A stretch of 64,000 nucleotides of DNA from Aminiphilus circumscriptus DSM 16581 (GTDB lineage: Bacteria; Synergistota; Synergistia; Synergistales; Aminiphilaceae). The translations under genes and the position numbers were made by a program. This document shows positions 13,718 through 24,168 of the stretch, piece after piece; positions within the stretch are counted from its first letter, which is position 1, and every line of letters begins with the position of its first letter. The notes under the pieces were generated by a model. The model searched no databases. It was given only the letters and a program-made list of their open reading frames with translations, and was not told the DNA's origin. The stretch covers positions 124,001 through 188,000 of the forward strand of contig NZ_JAFY01000005.1 of the NCBI RefSeq assembly GCF_000526375.1, read 5' to 3'.

Positions 13718-15094
13718 CTACTTCAGAAGACCGCCTCTGTGCTTGTCGTCGAAATCCTTCACCAGCTTTCGGAGTTCGCCGGAGAGCCAGAGAAGGGCAA
13801 TGAGGTTGGGAATGGCCATGAGACCGTTCATAGTATCCGCCATATCCCAGATGTGCTTGAGGAAGTTACCGCCGCCGCCGTAGGCGCCAATGATGATGAC
13901 AATGATCCAGAGAACCTTGTACACGGGAATGACCTTCACGCCGAAGATGTACTGGGCACCGGTCTCACCGTACCAGTACCAGCCGAGGATCGTGGAGAAG
14001 GCGAACATGGACAGCCCCAGGGAGAGAATCATGACTCCCGTGTCTCCGAGAACGATTTTGAAACCGGAAAGCGTGAGCTGGGCTCCCGTGAGATCCGGAT
14101 TCGCCGTGAGCACGCCCGTGGTGAGAATGGTGAGCGCCGTGAGGGTGCAGATGACGATGGTGTCGGTGAAGACCTCGAAGAGGCCGTACACGCCCTGGCG
14201 GACGGGATGGTCGACCTGGGCCGTGGCATGCACCAGCGGCGCGGAACCGAGCCCCGCCTCATTGGAGAAGACGCCCCGGGCAATTCCCTTGGTAAGGGCG
14301 ATCTTCACGCTCCATCCTGCCACGGCACCCGGCATGGCCATGGGATCACTGAAGGCGTACTTCACCGCATTAGCTAGGGCACCGGGGATTTGATCCATAT
14401 GATGGACAAGCACAAGAATAGCACCGATGATGTAGAAGATCGCCATGAAGGGAACGAGATAGGTGGTCACATCGGAGATGCGCTTCAAGCCGCCGACGAT
14501 GACGAGCCCCGTGAGAATCGCGATGGCGATGCCGGTGTAGAGATGGGGAATGCCGAAGCCGAGATTCAGGCCCTCGGCAGTGGAGTTGGCCTGAATGGCG
14601 TTGCCGATGCCGAAGGCGGCGAAGGTGGTGAAGAAGGCGAAAAGCCAGGCAAGCCACTTCTGTCCGACCGCTTTTTCAAGAATATACATGGTACCGCCGC
14701 GCCAGTTGCCGAGGGGATCCTTTTCACGGTACCGCACCGCCAGCGTCACTTCCGCGAACTTGGTGGTCATGCCGAAAATCGCGGAGATGAGCATCCAGAA
14801 AAGTGCACCCGGACCTCCCAGATGAAGTGCCGTGGCGACACCGGCGATGTTTCCGGTACCCACCGTGGAGGCCAGGGCCGTGGCGAGAGCGGCGAAGGAG
14901 GAAATGGATCCTTCGTTTTCTGTCTTCTTACCGAGTTTTCCGAAAACTTCCTTGAACATAAAACCGAAATAGCGAAGCTGGGGAAAGCCGAGGACAAAGG
15001 TCAGGTAAACGCCGGTGCCCACGAGAAGCGTGAGCATCCAGGGCCCCCATACGATTCCGTTGACAAGGTCGTTGATCCTCATGACCGATTCCAT
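13718..15094 (-). CDS. Sodium:alanine symporter, AGCS family
   Basis: A 458-residue inner-membrane transporter with about 11 hydrophobic helices that imports alanine or glycine with sodium. Family signatures are visible: ASTVGTGNIAGVATALHLGGPGALFW near residue 80, the WRGGTMYILE segment, and RGVFSNEAGLGSAPLVHATA. The N-terminus (INDLVNGIVWGPWMLTLLVGTG) is typical. A good ribosome site (AAGGAGG) precedes the ATG. As the first gene of agcS-alr-ald, it points to alanine (possibly also glycine) as an imported fermentation substrate. Confidence 0.95.
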   Translation of the reverse strand: MESVMRINDLVNGIVWGPWMLTLLVGTGVYLTFVLGFPQLRYFGFMFKEVFGKLGKKTENEGSISSFAALATALASTVGTGNIAGVATALHLGGPGALFWMLISAIFGMTTKFAEVTLAVRYREKDPLGNWRGGTMYILEKAVGQKWLAWLFAFFTTFAAFGIGNAIQANSTAEGLNLGFGIPHLYTGIAIAILTGLVIVGGLKRISDVTTYLVPFMAIFYIIGAILVLVHHMDQIPGALANAVKYAFSDPMAMPGAVAGWSVKIALTKGIARGVFSNEAGLGSAPLVHATAQVDHPVRQGVYGLFEVFTDTIVICTLTALTILTTGVLTANPDLTGAQLTLSGFKIVLGDTGVMILSLGLSMFAFSTILGWYWYGETGAQYIFGVKVIPVYKVLWIIVIIIGAYGGGGNFLKHIWDMADTMNGLMAIPNLIALLWLSGELRKLVKDFDDKHRGGLLK

Positions 15095-15348: not shown

Positions 15349-16521
15349 TCAGCAATATCCTCCCCGCCGCAAAAGTTCCTCCGCCGTCTCCTTATGGCGC
15401 CCGGGAATCTTGACGACCGGTCCGGTACATCCCATGGCGGATTCCGCGTAGATACCCGCCTTCCACAGCTCCCGCACCGCCTCTTCGATGGAGAGCACGT
15501 CCAGACCGTGAATTTCTTCATCGGTGGGTTCGGCTGGAGGCGCAACCACCAGTTCGGCCACACCTTGCGCCCGCACGGCAAAATCTTCGAGAATCGCGTC
15601 GAGTCCGGCTTTACGGGCCGCGCTGAGTTCCTCCTGGACAAGACGGGGCAATGCTCCCCGAACCGTCCGGGCCGTGAGAGCGATGGCTCCGGCAATGACG
15701 GGAGCGCCGCTCGCCCGGGAGATGATGGAGACGATTCGATCCCATCCCTCTCCGCAGGAGGGACCGTATCCCCATCCAGTTGCCTCGTAGCCCCCACCGG
15801 TGGTGAAGGCGGCAAACATTTTCATGAGCACGTTTCCCGTGAGACTGTCCGCAACGCACACGTCCACGGCACCCGCCAGAATATCGTTTCCCCGGAGAAT
15901 CGCGCCGCCATCCCTGCGTACGCTGCTACCGAAAGTGAGCGCGTATCCCTTTTCCTGAAGTTTCTTCAGCGCCTTGAAAACCGTCTGGGCACCTTCCACG
16001 TTCAGAATGCCCACGGTGGGATCGGCAATACCCGACGCCTTCGCCGTGGCGATACCGTAAAACGTGTTGCGAAGCATGGCTTCCACGCGGTTCGCCGAGG
16101 CCGTTCCCGTGGTGGAGGCAAGAAACATCCCCTTTCCCCGCGCGGGCGTGAGAACCTTGCCGATGGTCGTCACACCCAGAGGAAAGGGATAGTGCAAGGC
16201 TACACAGCCCTGGATCTCTCCTTCGTCGAGGGCCTTCTCCATGGCCCGGGAGATGTCCTCTTCGCAGTCCGGCGTCTCGATCCACGAGAGTTCTTTCGCA
16301 CCTTCGCCGGCGCTCCGGGGACCGATCATGACCACCTGAACGGGCGAGGATTCCTGGGCGAGCAACGCTCCCCGGAGCAGTTCCTCCGGCCCGAGTTCGC
16401 TCCCCGACGCCAACAGACCGATCCGGACCTTGGGGCCTGTATCGCCCCGTTCCACTGCACGCGCAGCATCCACGATCTCCCTCAGGGCCGTTCCGAGGAG
16501 CCGTTTTGTGTCTTTCGTCAT
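15349..16521 (-). CDS. grdD: Glycine reductase component C, alpha subunit GrdD
   Basis: GrdD (390 residues) is the PlsX-like subunit of protein C, which takes the carboxymethyl group from the GrdA selenocysteine as a Cys-bound acetyl thioester and releases acetyl phosphate. Characteristic segments are KVRIGLLASGSELGPEELLRGA at the N-terminus, HYPFPLGVTTIGKVLTPARG near residue 110 and GNDILAGAVDVCVADSLTGNVLMKMFAAF near residue 215. The C-terminal GCTGPVVKI carries a conserved cysteine. It is the last gene of the grd operon, 16 bases after grdC. No clear terminator was found in the following 250 bases. Confidence 0.95.
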   Translation of the reverse strand: MTKDTKRLLGTALREIVDAARAVERGDTGPKVRIGLLASGSELGPEELLRGALLAQESSPVQVVMIGPRSAGEGAKELSWIETPDCEEDISRAMEKALDEGEIQGCVALHYPFPLGVTTIGKVLTPARGKGMFLASTTGTASANRVEAMLRNTFYGIATAKASGIADPTVGILNVEGAQTVFKALKKLQEKGYALTFGSSVRRDGGAILRGNDILAGAVDVCVADSLTGNVLMKMFAAFTTGGGYEATGWGYGPSCGEGWDRIVSIISRASGAPVIAGAIALTARTVRGALPRLVQEELSAARKAGLDAILEDFAVRAQGVAELVVAPPAEPTDEEIHGLDVLSIEEAVRELWKAGIYAESAMGCTGPVVKIPGRHKETAEELLRRGGYC

Positions 16522-16537
16522 AATAAAAAGCCCCTCC

Positions 16538-18082
16538 TTACGCCTCCTGCTTCCCGAGGGAAGCCGCGAGGTCGGACAGCGCCTCCAGAAGAAGCGCTTT
16601 CACATCCTCCTTCGTGAGCGACTCCACCGACGCCTTCTTCGCCTGGGGCGGTTCGAGGAGGAAGGACGCGCCGTCGGAAAGATTCGTGAGTCGGGCGAGG
16701 AAGAGACTCCCCTTGCCGATGATCATGGCCCTCCTGATTCGTCCTTCCTTGATCCAGTCGCAGGCGTGTCCCACAAAGGGAACCCCCGAGGGAATATGCC
16801 CCTGGGTGTGGGCGAATCCGGGAACGCCTCGTTTTTTGACGAAGTCGTTCATGTCCCCCTTTTCTAGCTGTTTCTTCATGACCGCCAGGGCGGCGATCAT
16901 TTTAAAATTCGCCTCGGGGACGTTTCCAGCTCCTGCGGGAACGGTGATTTCAGGAATCTGAAGCTCCGCCGCGTATTTGTCCACATCGGAAAAGCCGAGC
17001 CCGAGCTTCTCCAGGGGATCCCAGACGAGAGCCCCCGTGATGGCCTGAGGCGCCGCCCCTGCCGCGACCGTGTGTTTTCCCAGAGCATCCAGGCGGATCA
17101 CCGGACTGACACCGTCCTCGGGAGTGAGGAGCACGGCGAAATTGCCGAGACAGTCCTCCAGGGAAGGAAGACCTTTCTTTACGTGATCCCGGCTGTTCAT
17201 GCAAAGCTTCGGAACCGCACCACCCGCGAGGACGACACAGTTCTTCCGCGCTCCGGCGGCGACCTGGGATGCTCCGGCGATCATGGCGTTCACCGGACCG
17301 GCACAGAAGGCCCGCACGTCGAAGCCACTAGCGTTGACGCATCCCGCAATCTCCGCCACCGCCTTAGCGAAGTTTCCTCCGCCCCGCTGGTTCATGTCCC
17401 CCGCGGCTTCCTCGGAACACTCCACGACGAAATCCACGTCCTCCGGGGCGATATCCGCGTTCTTGAAAAGGTGCAGGAGGGCAAGCACGCCACCGGCCTT
17501 GCAGGCAAGATTCTCCAAGAGCACGTAGGCTTCGAGGCACTCGTCCACATCATGTCCCTGACGCACGCATCCCACGGGAACTCCTTCGGAATAGAGAAGC
17601 AACGCATGATGTGTCTCCGCCTCGCCCCGAATCTCCTCGGAGGTATGCCCTTTTTCCAGGCGGGCAAGAAGAGCGGGCGTCATCAAAGGATGCGCGGCCA
17701 GCTTCTCCCGAATCCTGGTGGCGAAGGATTCCTCGAGCCAAACCAAATCGAAGACATCGCACATGTCCAACAGTCCGAGAAATTCATCCTCGGGCATGAT
17801 CTCGCCGTATTTGCCGAACCGCGACGCACCTTCCAGGCGATGGGAGTACCAGGGCTGGGGATGCGCCTCCAGGGCGTTCAGATCCATGCCGCCGATGTAG
17901 GCCTGGTTGGCCGGATAGGCCAATGCTTCTTCGAAGCGCTGCAGCGTTCCGGGGAGTTGCTTCAGAAACTCCGATTCTCCCTTCGTTTTTCGTTCCACAT
18001 AAGGGGTATTGCCATAGTGCAGAGCGAGCTCAGGCACGTGGTTCAGGCAATAGGCGTATCCCTTGACGGCAACGTTGGACAT
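16538..18082 (-). CDS. grdC: Glycine reductase component C, beta subunit GrdC
   Basis: GrdC (514 residues) pairs with GrdD to form the acetyl-phosphate-generating protein C. It resembles beta-ketoacyl-ACP synthase III-type folds: VVECSEEAAGDMNQRGGGNFAKAVAE and FDVRAFCAGPVNAMIAGASQVAAGA contain the thiolase-like active-site region (Cys in AFCAGP). The N-terminus VKGYAYCLNHVPELALHYG is typical of GrdC. It begins 32 bases after a strong hairpin-plus-T6 terminator that separates it from grdB, so component C may be made at a different level from the selenoproteins. Confidence 0.95.
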   Translation of the reverse strand: MSNVAVKGYAYCLNHVPELALHYGNTPYVERKTKGESEFLKQLPGTLQRFEEALAYPANQAYIGGMDLNALEAHPQPWYSHRLEGASRFGKYGEIMPEDEFLGLLDMCDVFDLVWLEESFATRIREKLAAHPLMTPALLARLEKGHTSEEIRGEAETHHALLLYSEGVPVGCVRQGHDVDECLEAYVLLENLACKAGGVLALLHLFKNADIAPEDVDFVVECSEEAAGDMNQRGGGNFAKAVAEIAGCVNASGFDVRAFCAGPVNAMIAGASQVAAGARKNCVVLAGGAVPKLCMNSRDHVKKGLPSLEDCLGNFAVLLTPEDGVSPVIRLDALGKHTVAAGAAPQAITGALVWDPLEKLGLGFSDVDKYAAELQIPEITVPAGAGNVPEANFKMIAALAVMKKQLEKGDMNDFVKKRGVPGFAHTQGHIPSGVPFVGHACDWIKEGRIRRAMIIGKGSLFLARLTNLSDGASFLLEPPQAKKASVESLTKEDVKALLLEALSDLAASLGKQEA

Positions 18083-18107
18083 ACGAGTGCCTCCTCTTGA
18101 AAAGAGT

Positions 18108-18137
18108 AAAAAAGGGCCGGGGGGTATCCCCCGACCC
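18108..18137 (-). terminator. Internal terminator between grdB and grdC
   Basis: On the minus strand GGGTCGGGGG-ATAC-CCCCCGGCCC forms a 10 bp stem (one G-U pair), followed at once by TTTTTT. It lies in the 60-base gap between the grdB stop and the grdC start. The structure has every feature of an intrinsic terminator although the operon continues. Confidence 0.82.
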
Positions 18138-18142
18138 TCCGT

Positions 18143-19450
18143 TCATTCGGAGAAGACGGTCTGTTCCGAAATCTCCGTTTGAAGCGCCTTGAGTGCCTTT
18201 TCGACGAGTTTCCGGCGAATGATTTTTTCCTCCGCCGGTGTTTTCGTGGGATCCCCGAGCGGATGGGGAATGGCGACGGCGGGAACGATCCGGTTCGCGC
18301 CGACCGTGAGAGAGATGGGAACGATCGTACATACGTGAACAACGGGGAATCCTGCACGTTCGATTTCCTTGACCATCGTTGCGCCGCAACGAGTGCAGGT
18401 TCCTCAGGTGGAGGTGAGAATCACCGCGTCCACGCCGTCCTTCTTGAGCTTCGCCGCGATTTCAGCCCCGAAACGCTTGGCATTGGCCACGGGCGTTCCG
18501 TTGCCTACGGTGGTGAAGAATTTTCCGTAGAGCTTCTTGAAGACACCCTCTTTTTCCATCTCCCGCATCACATCAACGGGAAGCACCCGGTTCGGGTCGT
18601 TGTTGGCGTAGGTGGGGTCATAACCGCCGTGGGCCGTCTCGTGGCTGGACGCAGTGAGGCGGTCGAACTCCTCGAGACCGTATTCGCCGTACTTGGTCGC
18701 GCTGGAAGCCTCGATATGGTCGGGATTTCCCTTGGGGCAAATTCCTCCGGAAGTGACCAGCGCAATGGTGGCATTCGCCAGATCCTTCAGGGGCGGACTC
18801 GGGGGCACCCTGTCGAAGACCGGCATGGGGTACTCCGTGACGAAGGGCTTCCCCGCGAGCTTGTTCACCAACATTTCCACGGCACGCTCCGCACCTGTGA
18901 CATCGGTGAAGAAATTCTTCCGAAGCCCCTGCTCGAGGTACCCTTCCGCCTCCGGCGAGCCCAGCTCTTCCTTCCGGAGAAGCTTCAGCGTAAGACGAGC
19001 CATGGCGGGAACCGCATCCTTCATGCCCCGGGCACTGTCAGCGGTCTTCGCGATGATTACGCTCTTGCGGAACATGTCCACCCCCGGGTTCTCCGGGTAC
19101 ATACCGGTCACGGCGGGAATGCCGAGTTCCTTGGACACGGCCGCGCACACCGCACCCGCCGCAGTTCCATAACGCCCGGCGTTGAAGGCCGGTCCTGCAA
19201 CCACCGCGTCGGGATTGCAGCTCCGGATCATCTGGAGAATGTCCGCGGTGGCCTTCTCCATATTTTCCGCGAAATAGCCGTCACCGCAGATCACTGTGGC
19301 AACCACCTGGGCGTCGCTGCCGAGAGCGGCCGCAAGAGCCTGCCCAGGGCCGACCACACCCTGCCGCAGTTCCGGGGGAACATCCGCCTTGTCCTCTCCC
19401 CCGATACCGGCAAAGAACTGGTTGATATAATGCACTACACGGAAGGACAT
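18143..19450 (-). CDS. grdB: Glycine reductase component B selenoprotein subunit GrdB (Sec at UGA 18406-18404)
   Basis: GrdB is the substrate-activating selenoprotein of glycine (or sarcosine/betaine) reductase. The reading frame from ATG 19450 is interrupted only by a TGA at 18406-18404, then continues 86 codons to the real stop. The in-frame TGA gives STUGTCTRCGATMVKEIE, the conserved U-x-x-C-x-x-C motif, with Sec at residue 349; total 435 residues. GGICPKGNPDHIE lies about 90 residues upstream of Sec. grdE in the same operon encodes the matching pyruvoyl subunit and the riboswitch senses glycine, so glycine is the likely substrate, although GrdB variants for sarcosine or betaine look similar. 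Gene callers will truncate it to 348 residues. Confidence 0.96.
18376..18406 (-). promoter_or_regulatory. Bacterial SECIS candidate and Sec UGA of grdB
   Basis: On the minus strand the UGA is followed after exactly 11 bases by a 17-base hairpin TCGTTGC-GGC-GCAACGA (7 bp stem, 3-base loop). That spacing and size match the minimal E. coli fdhF SECIS upper stem-loop as I remember it. It lies within the coding sequence and also encodes the conserved CTRCGAT region. Confidence 0.65.
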
Positions 19451-19480
19451 GAGGTTCCCTCCTCCATTTCGTTCCCAAGA

Positions 19481-19957
19481 TTACAGGGGATATTTGGCGT
19501 ATTGTTCCCGCATGTTCTTGACGGCCTGGCCCAGTTTTTCCGTGTCGAGGACCATTTCCATCATGCTGATCTGTTCCTCCCAGGCAGCCTCGTCGGCCTC
19601 CTGGCGAATCTCCGGTTCGAAGACGTGATAGACCGCGAGCCCCAACGGGGCTCCAGCCAGAGGACCTGCATAGGTGGGATCGCCGTTGGTCACCGTTTCG
19701 GCATAGATCTCGGCACCCTCCGGGTCGGAAGAACCAAGAACGACCACAACGTTTTCCGCACCGAACTTTTCAGCGGCGTCCTTGACACGCTGCTGATTCT
19801 GCAGGTCCATGGCTCCCGCGGCGGTTCAGACGAAACACTCCGTCACCGAGAAGACGATGTCCGCACCACTCTTTTTCAAGCAGGCTTCCATGGCGGGTCC
19901 CGCCACGCCGTCCCGTTCGCCGAGAAGGATCAATTTCTTTCCGGCCAACGCTCCCAT
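19481..19957 (-). CDS. grdA: Glycine reductase component A selenoprotein GrdA (Sec at UGA 19828-19826)
   Basis: GrdA is the small selenoprotein common to all glycine/sarcosine/betaine reductases; it carries the carboxymethyl selenoether between components B and C and is re-reduced by thioredoxin. The frame from ATG 19957 (AGGAGG site upstream) runs through a TGA giving [15 protein letters not shown], the diagnostic GrdA motif, with Sec at residue 44. Total length is 158 residues. Ignoring the TGA leaves a 109-residue fragment starting at MDLQNQ, a common misannotation. A hairpin (ATGCGT-GCTCC...GGAGC-ACGCAT) lies between grdE and grdA and may help mRNA processing. Confidence 0.96.
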
Positions 19958-20052
19958 GGTTCCACCTCCTCATTTTTCCTTACTTCAATGCGTCGCTCCG
20001 AAGGAGCAAACGCATCGGGCCTCTTCCGCGCCGCCAGGCGACACCGGAATGA

Positions 20053-21339
20053 TCACTTCGTGCAGGCGCTGATCTTGGAGAATCCGAGTTCGCTCGTCGC
20101 CCCCGTGATGGCCTGCAGCTCCACGAGAACAGAGCCATCCTTCCGAAGAGCGCCCTCATATCCGCCGGCAATGACGTTGACGAAAGCGGGAAAACCGATG
20201 ACCTTCTCCATGGGAGGCAGGAGGATCATCTCGTTGGCGTTGCCCCCCGTAACCACCGCATCCGCCTCTTTACAGGCATCGGCCAGAGACTGGCTCGCAC
20301 CATCCCGACCGGCGTACTCGTCGGTGATGAGCACCGTCTTTATTCCCGCGTTCTCCGCCTTGCGGCAGTTCATGATGAGATCCGTGTCGGGATTGCCGAA
20401 TCCTTCTTCGCTGATGATCAGCCCTTCCACGCCGAGCATGGAGGCGAGCTTCACCGCGTAGGAGGAACTGCGTTTCTTATCCGCGAGCGTGACATTCTCG
20501 TTGGTGATGACGCATCCTACGAAGTTGATGTCCTTGCCGTGCCGTGCATAGAGCGCGCGAATTACGGGGTTGTTCTGGTGCGAGAAGGTACTGTTCTTGT
20601 CACAGGCGGAGACGCAGTTCCCGGAAACGATGGCCCCGTCCATCACCTCGTTGGGATGGATTAGCGTGGGAAGAATTTTTTTCGCGTCCACGCCGTACAC
20701 GTAGGTGTCGTGAAGCAATCCCTGGGACTGGAGCATATAGAGATAGGCGACCTTGGGCAGACCCGCGTGGGACGTCATGGCCACGCTGAAAGGCGGCAGC
20801 TCGTAGCTCTCCACTACATCCGCCCTGGCGGTCTTCACCGCCGAGGCAAGATAATGAGCGACCCGGAATCCCGCCATGCGACAGGCGTTCTCGTAATCGT
20901 GTTTCTCCAGACCCTCCACGGGGGTGAAGACCAACACCAAGTTGAATGTCTCGGAAAAGGGCGTGTAGGCAGCGCCCGGACCGGACATATCCACAATACC
21001 CTCCTGAAAGCCCACGATCTGTCCGCAGGTAACCACCGCGGCGCCGTCGAGCACAAGGGTTTTGCCGCTTCCGACGGTCTCCACGTCGCCGATGAAACCC
21101 GGGAACACTTCTCCAGGTCCCTCGAGTTTGCACCGAGGCTGCACCACATCCTTCACGGGCGTGATACGCGTCCGCTCTCCGGGACGAGCCACATCGACGG
21201 CAACCTCGGCAAACCGGGAATCCGTACGGAGCATTTCCAGAACAGTCTTTTCATCGACTGTGAGCACACCGCCCTTCAGGGCAGTGACGGATCCCAATTC
21301 CAATCCGGTAATGCTGATCTTGTGCAGTTCCAGTCTCAC
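20053..21339 (-). CDS. grdE: Glycine reductase component B proprotein GrdE
   Basis: GrdE is made as a proprotein that self-cleaves to give two subunits of protein B, with a pyruvoyl cofactor that forms a Schiff base with glycine. The expected cleavage site is visible in SGNCVSACDKN: Cys242, the same position as in the Eubacterium acidaminophilum protein. Conserved stretches include LDGAAVVTCGQIVGFQEGIVDMSGPG near residue 97 and GGNANEMILLPPMEKVIGFP near the end. Length is 428 residues. The start is GTG at 21339. It lies between trxA and grdA. Confidence 0.96.
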   Translation of the reverse strand: MRLELHKISITGLELGSVTALKGGVLTVDEKTVLEMLRTDSRFAEVAVDVARPGERTRITPVKDVVQPRCKLEGPGEVFPGFIGDVETVGSGKTLVLDGAAVVTCGQIVGFQEGIVDMSGPGAAYTPFSETFNLVLVFTPVEGLEKHDYENACRMAGFRVAHYLASAVKTARADVVESYELPPFSVAMTSHAGLPKVAYLYMLQSQGLLHDTYVYGVDAKKILPTLIHPNEVMDGAIVSGNCVSACDKNSTFSHQNNPVIRALYARHGKDINFVGCVITNENVTLADKKRSSSYAVKLASMLGVEGLIISEEGFGNPDTDLIMNCRKAENAGIKTVLITDEYAGRDGASQSLADACKEADAVVTGGNANEMILLPPMEKVIGFPAFVNVIAGGYEGALRKDGSVLVELQAITGATSELGFSKISACTK

Positions 21340-21362
21340 CGCTTGTCCCCCCCAACGGGATG

Positions 21363-21686
21363 TTACGCCTGCAGGAGTTTCTCCGTGTTCTCCCGAATCG
21401 ATTCGAGGGTCACCTCCCCCCCGGTGATACGGGATACGAGTTCTCCTGCCTTATAGAAAAGAAACGTGGGCACGCCCATGACCTTGAGGGAAATGACCAG
21501 CCGGCGATTTTCCGCCACATTCAGCTTGCAGAAGGTCACCCTCCCTTCGTACTCCTTCGCCAGTTCCTCCACCTGGGGCAAAAGAGCCAGACAGGGACCA
21601 CATTTCGGTCCCCACAAGTCCACCACCACCGGAATTTCACTCTGAAGCACGACGCTGTCGAACGACTCCTTGTCCACCTCGATCAC
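21363..21686 (-). CDS. trxA: Thioredoxin of the glycine reductase operon
   Basis: A 107-residue thioredoxin placed inside the grd operon, where it would recycle oxidised GrdA during each turnover. The active site reads WGPKCGPC (Cys29, Cys32): the CGPC pair is normal, but Lys replaces the usual Trp directly before it. GVPTFLFYKAGE contains the cis-proline. A frame continues upstream, but GTG at 21686 is preceded by GGAGGTGA, and the protein then has the usual length. No thioredoxin reductase gene is in the window, so the reductant comes from elsewhere. Confidence 0.92.
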   Translation of the reverse strand: MIEVDKESFDSVVLQSEIPVVVDLWGPKCGPCLALLPQVEELAKEYEGRVTFCKLNVAENRRLVISLKVMGVPTFLFYKAGELVSRITGGEVTLESIRENTEKLLQA

Positions 21687-21832
21687 TCTCGTCACCTCCT
21701 TTCCGCAAGCGCTCCTTCCACGTCGCTCCTTGCATTCGCGACAACGCGCCTCTCTCACCGCCGATGAAAGCTCCGCCTCCAGCCCTGCAGTTCCGTGCTC
21801 AGAGTTCCTTAACTAAGAAGAAAAATGTTTTC

Positions 21833-22237
21833 CTAGGGGATCCAAAGATGGTCCCGGAGAAGGCTTTCTTTCATGAGTTCCATATCGAGAAAGGCCAAGT
21901 CCTCCAGTGCCTCCGAAGAAAAACCGGAACCGGAACCCGTTGCCGGTACTTGCCTCGGAAGAGCATGGAGAACCAGAGCCTCCTCCAGCAACTTCAGGGA
22001 ATCCATGTCGACCGGTGCGGGAGAGATGGCGGGTTTCCGCAGAAGGACGGAACGGAACGGTTGTTGCGACGGACGGAAATTGCCGTAAAGAGGATGTGTG
22101 AGAAGGCGCCACCCCTGGTGGACGAGATCCCTCGCAGCGATAAAAACATCCTGCGCCACCCCCTCGATGAAACGAGAAGAGGATACATGTCCGACGATGC
22201 GGGCGTTATTGGTTATCAACACAACATCGACAGTCAT
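21833..22237 (-). CDS. grdX: GrdX family protein
   Basis: A 134-residue protein of unknown biochemical role that accompanies grd operons. Matching features are a short beta strand plus NN near the start (VDVVLITNNARIVG), FIEGVAQDVFIAARDLVHQGWRLLTHPLYGNFRPSQQPFRS, then DMDSLKLLEEAL and the late LEDLAFLDMELM. It is the first gene behind the glycine riboswitch, so the riboswitch expression platform must act on its leader or ribosome site. A regulatory or assembly role is often assumed, but nothing in the sequence shows it. Confidence 0.85.
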   Translation of the reverse strand: MTVDVVLITNNARIVGHVSSSRFIEGVAQDVFIAARDLVHQGWRLLTHPLYGNFRPSQQPFRSVLLRKPAISPAPVDMDSLKLLEEALVLHALPRQVPATGSGSGFSSEALEDLAFLDMELMKESLLRDHLWIP

Positions 22238-22261
22238 AGGTCATTCCCCCCTTACGGGACG

Positions 22262-22462
22262 ACGGCCTACTCTGTCCTGGTGCCCCGGAGATTCGCGCGG
22301 GCGCGCTTGCTCCTTAGGCGGGCGCGGGCGCACCCTTTCCAGAGATCCCTCCCGTCGCAATCCTTCCGCCTGAGAGATTCAGCCCGTGGGCTTTGCACCT
22401 TCGGCGCTCCGCATCCTTTTTCAATCCGATTTCCGGAATACGAAGACTCTCTTGCGACGCTC
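22262..22462 (-). promoter_or_regulatory. Tandem glycine riboswitch controlling the grd operon
   Basis: Two glycine aptamers lie in tandem on the minus strand. The first (22459-22353) is closed by TTGCGACG/CGTCGCAA and contains GCGCCGAAGGTGCAA and CTCTCAGGCGGAAGGA. The second (about 22350-22262) contains AAGGAGCAAG, CTCCGGGGCACCAGGACAGAG and a CTCTG/CAGAG closing stem. These match the glycine-riboswitch core (GCGCCGAAGG..GCAA, CUCUCAGGC, GGACAGAG). Grd consumes glycine, so glycine should switch expression on. I could not identify the expression platform: no T-tailed terminator is evident before grdX, so control of translation start or a hidden anti-terminator is possible. Confidence 0.93.
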
Positions 22463-22486
22463 TTCGGGATGAGCCATTCTGTATCA

Positions 22487-22514
22487 ATCATACCACTTGT
22501 TCACAAAAGGTCAA
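22487..22514 (-). promoter_or_regulatory. Sigma-70-type promoter of the grd operon
   Basis: On the minus strand TTGACC (22514-22509) and TATGAT (22492-22487) are separated by 16 bases. Transcription would begin near 22480, just upstream of the first riboswitch stem. Both hexamers match the consensus at 5/6. Confidence 0.8.
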
Positions 22515-22685: not shown

Positions 22686-24029
22686 CTACCACTTGAGGCC
22701 CGAGAAGAAGATGTAGGCGATCGCCACGGGAGCGACGATGCGGCAGATCCATACCCAGGCGGTCATGAAACCGAAAGGAATGGTGCCGTTGTTTGTGATT
22801 TCCTTCTCGGCTCCGTCAAGCCACACCCAGCCCACGAAGAGAGAGATAAAGATTCCACCGAGAGGCAGCAACACATTTGACGAAACAAAGTCCACCGCAT
22901 CCAGAAAATCCTTCCCCGCCACCTGGGGAATATGTCCTCCGAGGGAAAGCGCGGAGGGAACACCCAGAAGGAAAATGACCAGTCCCAGAATCCACGTCGC
23001 CTTGGGACGGCTCCAGCCGAGTTCGTCCTTGAAGTAGGCCACGCAGACCTCGAGGAGCGAGATAGCGGAGGTGATGGCCGCGAGGAAGAGCAGGAAGAAG
23101 AAGAGCGCCGACCAGATCATGCCACCGGGCATCTTGGCGAACACGCTGGGAAGGGTGATGAAGGTGAGACCCGGTCCCGCTCCGGGTTCGACGCCGAAGG
23201 CGAACACCGCGGGGAAAATGACGAGCCCTGCCAGAAAAGCGACGCACGTGTCGAGGAAGGACACCGTCACGGCTGCGGAGGGAAGCACTTCTTTCTTGGA
23301 CAGATAACTGCCGTAGGTGATCATGCATCCCATGCCGAGGGAGAGAGAGAAGAAGCCTTGTCCCAGCGCGGCGAGAAAGACGCCTCCATGCACCTTGGAG
23401 AAATCGGGCTTGAGATAGAACTCGAGCCCCTTGCCCGCACCCTCAAGCGTGACCGAACGAACGATGAGGATGAGGAGAATGAGGAAGAGTCCGGGCATCA
23501 TCCATTTGCAATATTGCTCGATGCCGCTTCCGATCCCTTTGTAGACGATCCAGATAGTCATGAGCATGAAGATGGCCTGCCAAAGGATCACCTGGGTGGG
23601 ATTGCTCACGAAGGCGCCGAAGGCGTCTCCCGCCTTCCCTTCGGCGGCAATGGCGATAAGCCCCGTGAAGGATTTAACCATGTAGGCGAGTGTCCACCCG
23701 GCCACCACACCGTAGAACGAAAGGATCAAGAATCCCGCGATAACGCCCATCCATCCCACGAGAGGCCAAGCCCCACCCTTGATCTTTTTGAAGGAACCGA
23801 CCGCGTTGAGCCCTGCGTTGCGTCCGATGGCGAACTCCGCCAGCATGACCGAGACTCCGATGGTGAAGACGATGGCGAGATAGATGACCACGAAGGCGCC
23901 ACCACCGTTGGCCCCGACCATATAGGGGAATTTCCAGATGTTGCCCAGCCCCACGGCGGATCCCGCCGCCGCAAAAATAAAGCCCATCCTGCTGCCCCAC
24001 TGTTCGCGCTGTTCGATCCCGTTGCTCAT
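22686..24029 (-). CDS. Sodium-dependent transporter, NSS (neurotransmitter:sodium symporter) family
   Basis: A 447-residue inner-membrane amino-acid symporter, LeuT/MhsT-like, with about 11-12 helices. The family signature GSAVGLGNIWKFPYMVGANGGGAF (helix 1) binds sodium and substrate; the EFAIGRNAGLNAVGSF loop and helix 6 LGQGFFSLSLGMGCMITYGSYL are also typical. The ATG at 24029 has a GAGGAGGGGG site. It is co-directional with and directly upstream of the grd operon, which suggests import of glycine or another amino acid; the substrate is not determined by sequence. Confidence 0.93.
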   Translation of the reverse strand: MSNGIEQREQWGSRMGFIFAAAGSAVGLGNIWKFPYMVGANGGGAFVVIYLAIVFTIGVSVMLAEFAIGRNAGLNAVGSFKKIKGGAWPLVGWMGVIAGFLILSFYGVVAGWTLAYMVKSFTGLIAIAAEGKAGDAFGAFVSNPTQVILWQAIFMLMTIWIVYKGIGSGIEQYCKWMMPGLFLILLILIVRSVTLEGAGKGLEFYLKPDFSKVHGGVFLAALGQGFFSLSLGMGCMITYGSYLSKKEVLPSAAVTVSFLDTCVAFLAGLVIFPAVFAFGVEPGAGPGLTFITLPSVFAKMPGGMIWSALFFFLLFLAAITSAISLLEVCVAYFKDELGWSRPKATWILGLVIFLLGVPSALSLGGHIPQVAGKDFLDAVDFVSSNVLLPLGGIFISLFVGWVWLDGAEKEITNNGTIPFGFMTAWVWICRIVAPVAIAYIFFSGLKW

Positions 24030-24168
24030 AATCCCCCTCCTCGACGTCTCAAAGTCGTGCATGTACGACGCGCAAACATCTCCCGTTTCAAGGATTCCGG
24101 TGCCGATGTCGTTCTTTCTCCCGCATCACCTCCCCTGCCTCCACTTTAAACCGCACATATTCCTCTGT

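Follow-up and report, generated by a model that had tools for sequence, protein, structure and literature searches.

A putative glycine-activated translational riboswitch upstream of the selenoprotein glycine reductase genes of Aminiphilus circumscriptus, and its counterparts in other phyla

Introduction

The output of the Bacillus subtilis gcvT glycine riboswitch is an intrinsic terminator. In Neisseria gonorrhoeae a tandem glycine ON switch has been shown by experiment to act on translation through a sequestration mediated by its second aptamer (PMC13104608), and a decay of aptamer 2 that leaves a type-1 singleton with a conserved aptamer 1 has been described for gcv contexts (PMC6944388). 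In Clostridioides difficile the glycine reductase genes (grd) are reported to carry a glycine riboswitch and to be induced by glycine (PMC11477304; also PMC10880999). A grd-linked glycine riboswitch and a translational tandem glycine ON switch are both already known. The present analysis concerns a 64,000-nucleotide (nt) stretch of the genome of Aminiphilus circumscriptus DSM 16581 (Synergistota; contig NZ_JAFY01000005.1, positions 124,001 to 188,000), hereafter the window, in which two matches to the glycine riboswitch family stand in front of a set of selenoprotein grd genes. The best explanation of this leader, with a probability of roughly 0.78, appears to be a glycine-activated riboswitch that switches on translation of the glycine reductase operon. 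What is useful here is the expression platform, as read by comparison with relatives, together with an apparent change of output between phyla; a literature search found no paper describing glycine riboswitches in Synergistota.

Results

Architecture of the grdX leader

Along the minus strand, the gene of a sodium:neurotransmitter-symporter (NSS) family transporter is followed by a promoter, two matches to the Rfam glycine riboswitch family RF00504 and the genes grdX-trxA-grdE-grdA-grdB-grdC-grdD. Both matches are located in the 5′ untranslated region, on the coding strand between promoter and grdX, and the leader contains the following elements.

22487..22514, minus strand: sigma-70-like promoter, with the -35 hexamer TTGACC at 22514-22509, a 16-nt spacer and the -10 hexamer TATGAT at 22492-22487
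22466..22470, minus strand: 5′ strand AUCCC of P0, the leader-linker helix, followed by a GAAGAG kink-turn-like junction (sequence; minimum-energy fold)
22348..22464, minus strand: glycine aptamer 1, ligand-binding core motifs GCCGAAGG and CUCUCAGG intact (RF00504, 62.0 bits, E 1.9e-10)
22345..22349, minus strand: 3′ strand GGGAU of P0, in the linker between the aptamers (minimum-energy fold)
22262..22352, minus strand: glycine aptamer 2, degenerate, with GCCUAAGG and CUCCGGGG (RF00504, 36.8 bits, own-genome scan)
22344-22340 and 22274-22270, minus strand: aptamer-2 P1, CUCUG with CAGAG
22229..22276, minus strand: predicted OFF hairpin, the expression platform (minimum-energy fold and comparison with relatives)
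22276-22272 and 22233-22229, minus strand: outer helix of the OFF hairpin, GACAG of the aptamer-2 P1 3′ strand with CUGUC in grdX codons 2-3
22246..22253, minus strand: grdX Shine-Dalgarno sequence AAGGGGGG (sequence)

The promoter proposed in an earlier sequence-only reading of this DNA is present as described, with 10 of 12 positions matching the consensus, and the sister species (L039) has identical hexamers and spacer. That reading had also proposed two glycine aptamers, and a scan of the window with RF00504 indeed returned two matches, the second of which (22344-22270, minus strand) reaches just 32.7 bits there against a gathering score of 32. The proposal is structurally right, but in aptamer 2 the motifs GCCGAAGG and CUCUCAGG, which aptamer 1 shares with the family, are replaced by GCCUAAGG and CUCCGGGG; having lost both core motifs, it probably serves as a scaffold and may not bind glycine itself. 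The same pattern is found throughout the Synergistota compared, where the first domains keep both motifs in 16/16 cases and the second domains keep either of them in 0/16, while second aptamers of Firmicutes retain CUCUCAGG in 10/10 and CCGAAGG in 9/10. The riboswitch as a whole is predicted to bind glycine. In the minimum-energy fold the leader pairs with the inter-aptamer linker as AUCCC-GAAGAG / GGA-GGGAU through a kink-turn-like junction, and the sister species retains both aptamer 1 and P0. The glycine-GGAnGA variant family (RF03166) was tried as well and rejected, since L001 scores 74.8 bits, well below the gathering score of 110. A scan of the whole genome with RF00504 found no further glycine riboswitch beyond these two aptamers. 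In related genomes, additional matches (L009, L013, L028, L041 and L057) lie near AGCS transporters instead of grd.

The predicted expression platform

The expression platform, which had seemed not obvious from the sequence of the window, can be identified by comparison as a helix that sequesters the start codon and the Shine-Dalgarno sequence and competes with aptamer-2 P1. In the proposed mechanism, the GACAG of the aptamer-2 P1 3′ strand would, when glycine is absent, pair with CUGUC in grdX codons 2-3, thereby completing a long hairpin that traps the ribosome-binding site and the start codon. Binding of glycine to aptamer 1 would lead to docking of the aptamer pair through the P0 kink-turn and P1-mediated contacts, upon which aptamer-2 P1 (CUCUG with CAGAG) would form and the outer half of the hairpin would be lost. 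The opened hairpin would make grdX and the downstream genes translatable, and the resulting glycine reductase would convert glycine to acetyl phosphate.

The folding of the window leader is consistent with such a scheme. The inner helices of the OFF hairpin enclose AAGGGGGG and the AUG, and the outer helix and aptamer-2 P1 compete for the same bases. The full leader has an energy of -109.2 kcal/mol in the OFF form, in which aptamer 1 and P0 are formed, and -101.4 kcal/mol when aptamer-2 P1 is enforced, and the unpaired probabilities of the start codon A/U/G change from 0.0/0.0/1.0 to 0.18/0.68/0.52, respectively. When the transcript is folded in stepwise-lengthened form, the OFF form prevails only after about 10 nt of coding sequence. 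The OFF hairpin has a z-score of -2.0, with 8 of 200 shuffled sequences folding equally well. No intrinsic terminator was found on the minus strand of the window leader.

Conservation of the alternative pairing in Synergistota

The comparison covered 60 genomes of the same order together with the window's own genome; a glycine aptamer is present in 51 of these 61, and start codons and P1 3′ strands were located in 49 leaders that immediately precede grdX. The arrangement seen in most Synergistota leaders is a helix between the P1 3′ strand of aptamer 2, or of the ghost aptamer in its place, and the start codon of grdX together with its codons 2-5, so that the Shine-Dalgarno sequence is enclosed. 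For this strand and the start region, the expected number of pairs averages 7.15 in the 49 grdX leaders versus 2.80 in dinucleotide shuffles. Alignment-free arm-swap permutation tests were used in place of RNAalifold, and in 19 non-redundant leaders the native arms gave -12.7 versus -8.9 kcal/mol for swapped ones (P = 5e-5); a stricter version, with the register fixed on GAC/GUC and only the outward columns scored, gave P = 6e-4 over four columns. Capture of the strand by P1 lowers the mean cost of opening the ribosome site from 20.9 to 14.6 kcal/mol (43 leaders), and from 19.3 to 13.3 kcal/mol in the window. As judged from these tests on the arms, the alternative pairing is under a covariation-like constraint across the phylum.

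A number of observations weigh against this interpretation. About a quarter of the leaders are without this exact pairing, namely a group of five (L003/L022/L033/L047/L048), a group of four (L004/L005/L007/L019) and the singles L029 and L051; these exceptions, which fall into two lineages and a few singles, have other layouts or no such helix. When 25 platform segments were aligned with plain MAFFT, RNAalifold yielded no consensus structure, because the hairpin lengths vary and the arms drop out of register. Taken alone, the outer helix of the window leader has no advantage over swapped arms, among which it ranks 8 of 19, and its support comes from the relatives. Finally, the inner hairpin (UAGG/CCUA, UCCC/GGGG) persists in the modelled ON state, where the Shine-Dalgarno sequence is mostly paired and about 13 kcal/mol is still needed to open the ribosome site. 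The switch may be partial, or may depend on a rearrangement that the model lacks.

Output modules in other phyla

A glycine aptamer lies upstream of, and in the same direction as, 71 of the 80 GrdE loci with organism names, and at all nine loci without one the DNA available upstream is shorter than 1.8 kb. The suggestion of the sequence-only reading that glycine reductase is an unusual product for a glycine riboswitch to regulate is not supported; in the grd operons of Synergistota, Desulfovibrio and Firmicutes, glycine control of glycine reductase appears to be the rule rather than an oddity. An intrinsic terminator whose 5′ arm begins in the P1 3′ strand is present in 18 of 25 Firmicutes leaders, as in Tissierella pigra (CAGAGUAAGUAGGCC...GACCUAUUUAUUCUGUUUUUU), while the 46 leaders of Synergistota, Desulfovibrio and relatives contain one weak terminator candidate. 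In Firmicutes, pairing of the P1 3′ strand into the terminator is supported (P = 2e-4), and its pairing with the grdX start is not (P = 0.07). The partner of the P1 3′ strand is thus a terminator in Firmicutes but the grdX start in Synergistota, and a single sensor strand seems to drive two different output modules.

Desulfovibrio and other Deltaproteobacteria (L071, L072, L082, L084, L085, L089 and L103) have a grd operon with a glycine aptamer and a short, Synergistota-like leader without a terminator. Horizontal transfer is a possible explanation.

The glycine reductase genes

The genes downstream and upstream of the leader are as follows.

22686..24062, minus strand: NSS family transporter, upstream flank (PF00209; synteny)
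21833..22237, minus strand: grdX (NF038093, 96.5 bits)
21363..21686, minus strand: trxA-like thioredoxin with CGPC (best model NF047697, 117.5 bits)
20053..21339, minus strand: grdE, component B alpha/gamma proprotein (PF09338, 680 bits)
19481..19957, minus strand: grdA selenoprotein (PF04723, 252 bits, the match running through the selenocysteine (Sec) TGA)
19828-19826, minus strand: in-frame Sec codon TGA of grdA, codon 44 (sequence)
18143..19450, minus strand: grdB selenoprotein (TIGR01917, 679.5 bits)
18406-18404, minus strand: in-frame Sec codon TGA of grdB, codon 349 (sequence)
18366..18403, minus strand: bacterial selenocysteine insertion sequence of grdB (SECIS_4), directly after the grdB TGA (RF01990, 58.4 bits)
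18111..18140, minus strand: intrinsic-terminator-like hairpin in the grdB-grdC gap (-25 kcal/mol, T tract)
16538..18082, minus strand: grdC, component C beta (NF040746, 738 bits)
15349..16521, minus strand: grdD, component C alpha (NF040747, 543 bits)

The family models thus agree with the seven genes and the order given by the sequence-only reading. The thioredoxin remains below the cut-off of 140 of the clostridial TrxA model NF047697, and its start is likely the GTG at 21686, which is preceded by AAGGAGG. It directly follows grdX; a trxB gene, as in the clostridial layout, was not found inside the operon, and a single strong TrxB gene sits elsewhere in the genome (G000:C7:626212). The type of GrdB was judged by NCBIfam cut-offs, and the score to TIGR01917 exceeds its cut-off of 602, whereas those to the sarcosine-type GrdF model (700.5 bits, cut-off 800) and the betaine-type GrdH model (546 bits, cut-off 775) both fail. 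A sarcosine GrdG identity was likewise rejected for GrdE, as the model cut-off is not reached. By these scores, component B of the window locus is of the glycine type and not of the sarcosine or betaine type.

With GrdA, GrdB, GrdE and GrdC/D all present and Sec codons in grdA and grdB, the glycine reductase set is complete, and the selenocysteine machinery is found in the genome as tRNA-Sec (79 bits), SelB and SelD. The selD gene (G000:C7:751162-752091) has an in-frame TGA itself, so that SelD is probably a selenoprotein as well. The proposed complete operon behind the riboswitch stands as regards the gene set, but a single transcript for all seven genes, and hence one operon, is no more than plausible, given that the terminator-like hairpin divides grdB from grdC. 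The sister species (L059) has a hairpin at the same position with a changed sequence, and a terminator-like hairpin is present in 20 of 52 grdB-grdC gaps of other genomes. The hairpin (18140-18111) could give GrdC/D a different dose.

The host genome has 3.2 Mb. Judged by GrdE, the named organism nearest to it is Synergistaceae bacterium UBA5560 (96% identity; the same-genus genome G001). No gcvP was detected in a search of the genome, and glycine reduction may therefore be the main dedicated glycine outlet of the organism. Two sodium-coupled amino-acid transporter families flank the grd operon on the minus strand, AGCS (13718-15094) and NSS, the latter gene being found upstream of grd in many Synergistota. 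A long inverted repeat (22664-22590) separates the NSS gene from the grd promoter and is followed by a T tract on the plus strand only, although both neighbouring genes lie on the minus strand.

Discussion

The ON direction appears the most likely sense of the regulation because the OFF helix and aptamer-2 P1 use the same bases, and the glycine induction of grd reported for C. difficile points the same way, in line with the sequence-only reading, which had proposed that glycine induces its own reduction. An OFF switch, in which binding of glycine would reduce grd expression, has a precedent in the glycine riboswitches of AGCS transporters, so that both directions do occur (PMC11477304). Stabilization of P1 must weaken the OFF helix in the window leader, however, and gcv riboswitches, which are of the ON type, are reported to show the same combination of a conserved aptamer 1 with a degenerate aptamer 2 (PMC6944388). 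Repression of a glycine catabolic operon by glycine would also make little sense, and no gcvP was detected in the genome. An OFF switch is considered very improbable. A decayed or silent riboswitch, in which the hairpin would merely fix a constant low rate of translation, might be suspected from the missing CCGAAGG and CUCUCAGG of aptamer 2 and from a score barely over the gathering threshold. Yet the intact aptamer 1 scores 62 bits and is retained along with P0 in the sister species, type-1 singletons retaining aptamer 1 only are regarded as functional (PMC6944388), and the constraint on the alternative pairing across the phylum likewise speaks against decay, which makes this explanation the least probable of those weighed.

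Glycine might also act on transcription, either because sequestration of the start codon exposes the untranslated mRNA to Rho or because of an unrecognized terminator, and would then alter the mRNA level instead of translation initiation. The Firmicutes grd leaders build a terminator from the very same P1 3′ strand, the C. difficile grd response is described at the transcript level (PMC11477304), and translational riboswitches with coupling to Rho are known (see the discussion in PMC13104608). Hairpins of the L023 and L045 type, which occur in some Synergistota, end with a short U tract. Against this stand the lack of a terminator-like site in the minus-strand window leader, the near absence of such sites among the leaders of Synergistota, Desulfovibrio and relatives, and the extent of the conserved pairing, which reaches the start codon and the coding sequence and would be needless for a terminator. 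Transcriptional action is thus judged unlikely, and we infer that the output of the glycine-activated switch is translational and not Rho-coupled.

For a broader proposal the odds seem about evenly balanced: across phyla, the operon would have retained one and the same sensor module while the output was exchanged. The P1 3′ strand of the second domain would supply a terminator in Firmicutes, and a start-codon clamp that extends into the grdX coding sequence in Synergistota, where a non-binding aptamer 2 would provide only a scaffold and the switching strand, so that the first grdX codons would be constrained by RNA pairing. One sensor with two outputs on the same operon would offer a natural series for studying output-module exchange and the decay from tandem to singleton. 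The sequence-only reading had considered that the mechanism may be new, but a helix that sequesters the start codon and Shine-Dalgarno sequence in competition with aptamer-2 P1 is a known type of output.

Among the described systems, the B. subtilis gcvT riboswitch resembles the window leader in its tandem aptamers, leader-linker kink-turn and ON action, but regulates gcv genes (PMC5666159). The C. difficile grd locus (PMC11477304, PMC10880999) is likewise reported to have a glycine riboswitch directly before a selenoprotein grd operon in which glycine raises expression, while its operon contains trxB, which that of the window does not. The grd leaders examined from Firmicutes other than C. 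difficile retain the core of aptamer 2 and form an intrinsic terminator from the 3′ strand of its P1, in contrast to the predicted start-codon sequestering helix and the lost core of the window leader. The type-1 singleton, with its conserved aptamer 1 and a 3′ ghost aptamer (PMC6944388), shares with the window a non-consensus second domain that retains P1, and is the form found upstream of grdX in most Synergistota relatives; the window and its sister species differ from it in a second domain that still has its full length, with P2 and P3. The mode of action proposed here is likewise paralleled by the N. gonorrhoeae gcvT riboswitch, which lacks an intrinsic terminator and conserves aptamer 1 better than aptamer 2; without glycine, bases of its aptamer 2 pair with the region of translation initiation (PMC13104608). 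There, the switch controls gcvT and bases of P3a, P3 and P1 pair just upstream of the start codon, whereas in the window leader the P1 3′ strand appears to be used, the predicted pairing extends into grdX codons 2-3, and the target is grd.

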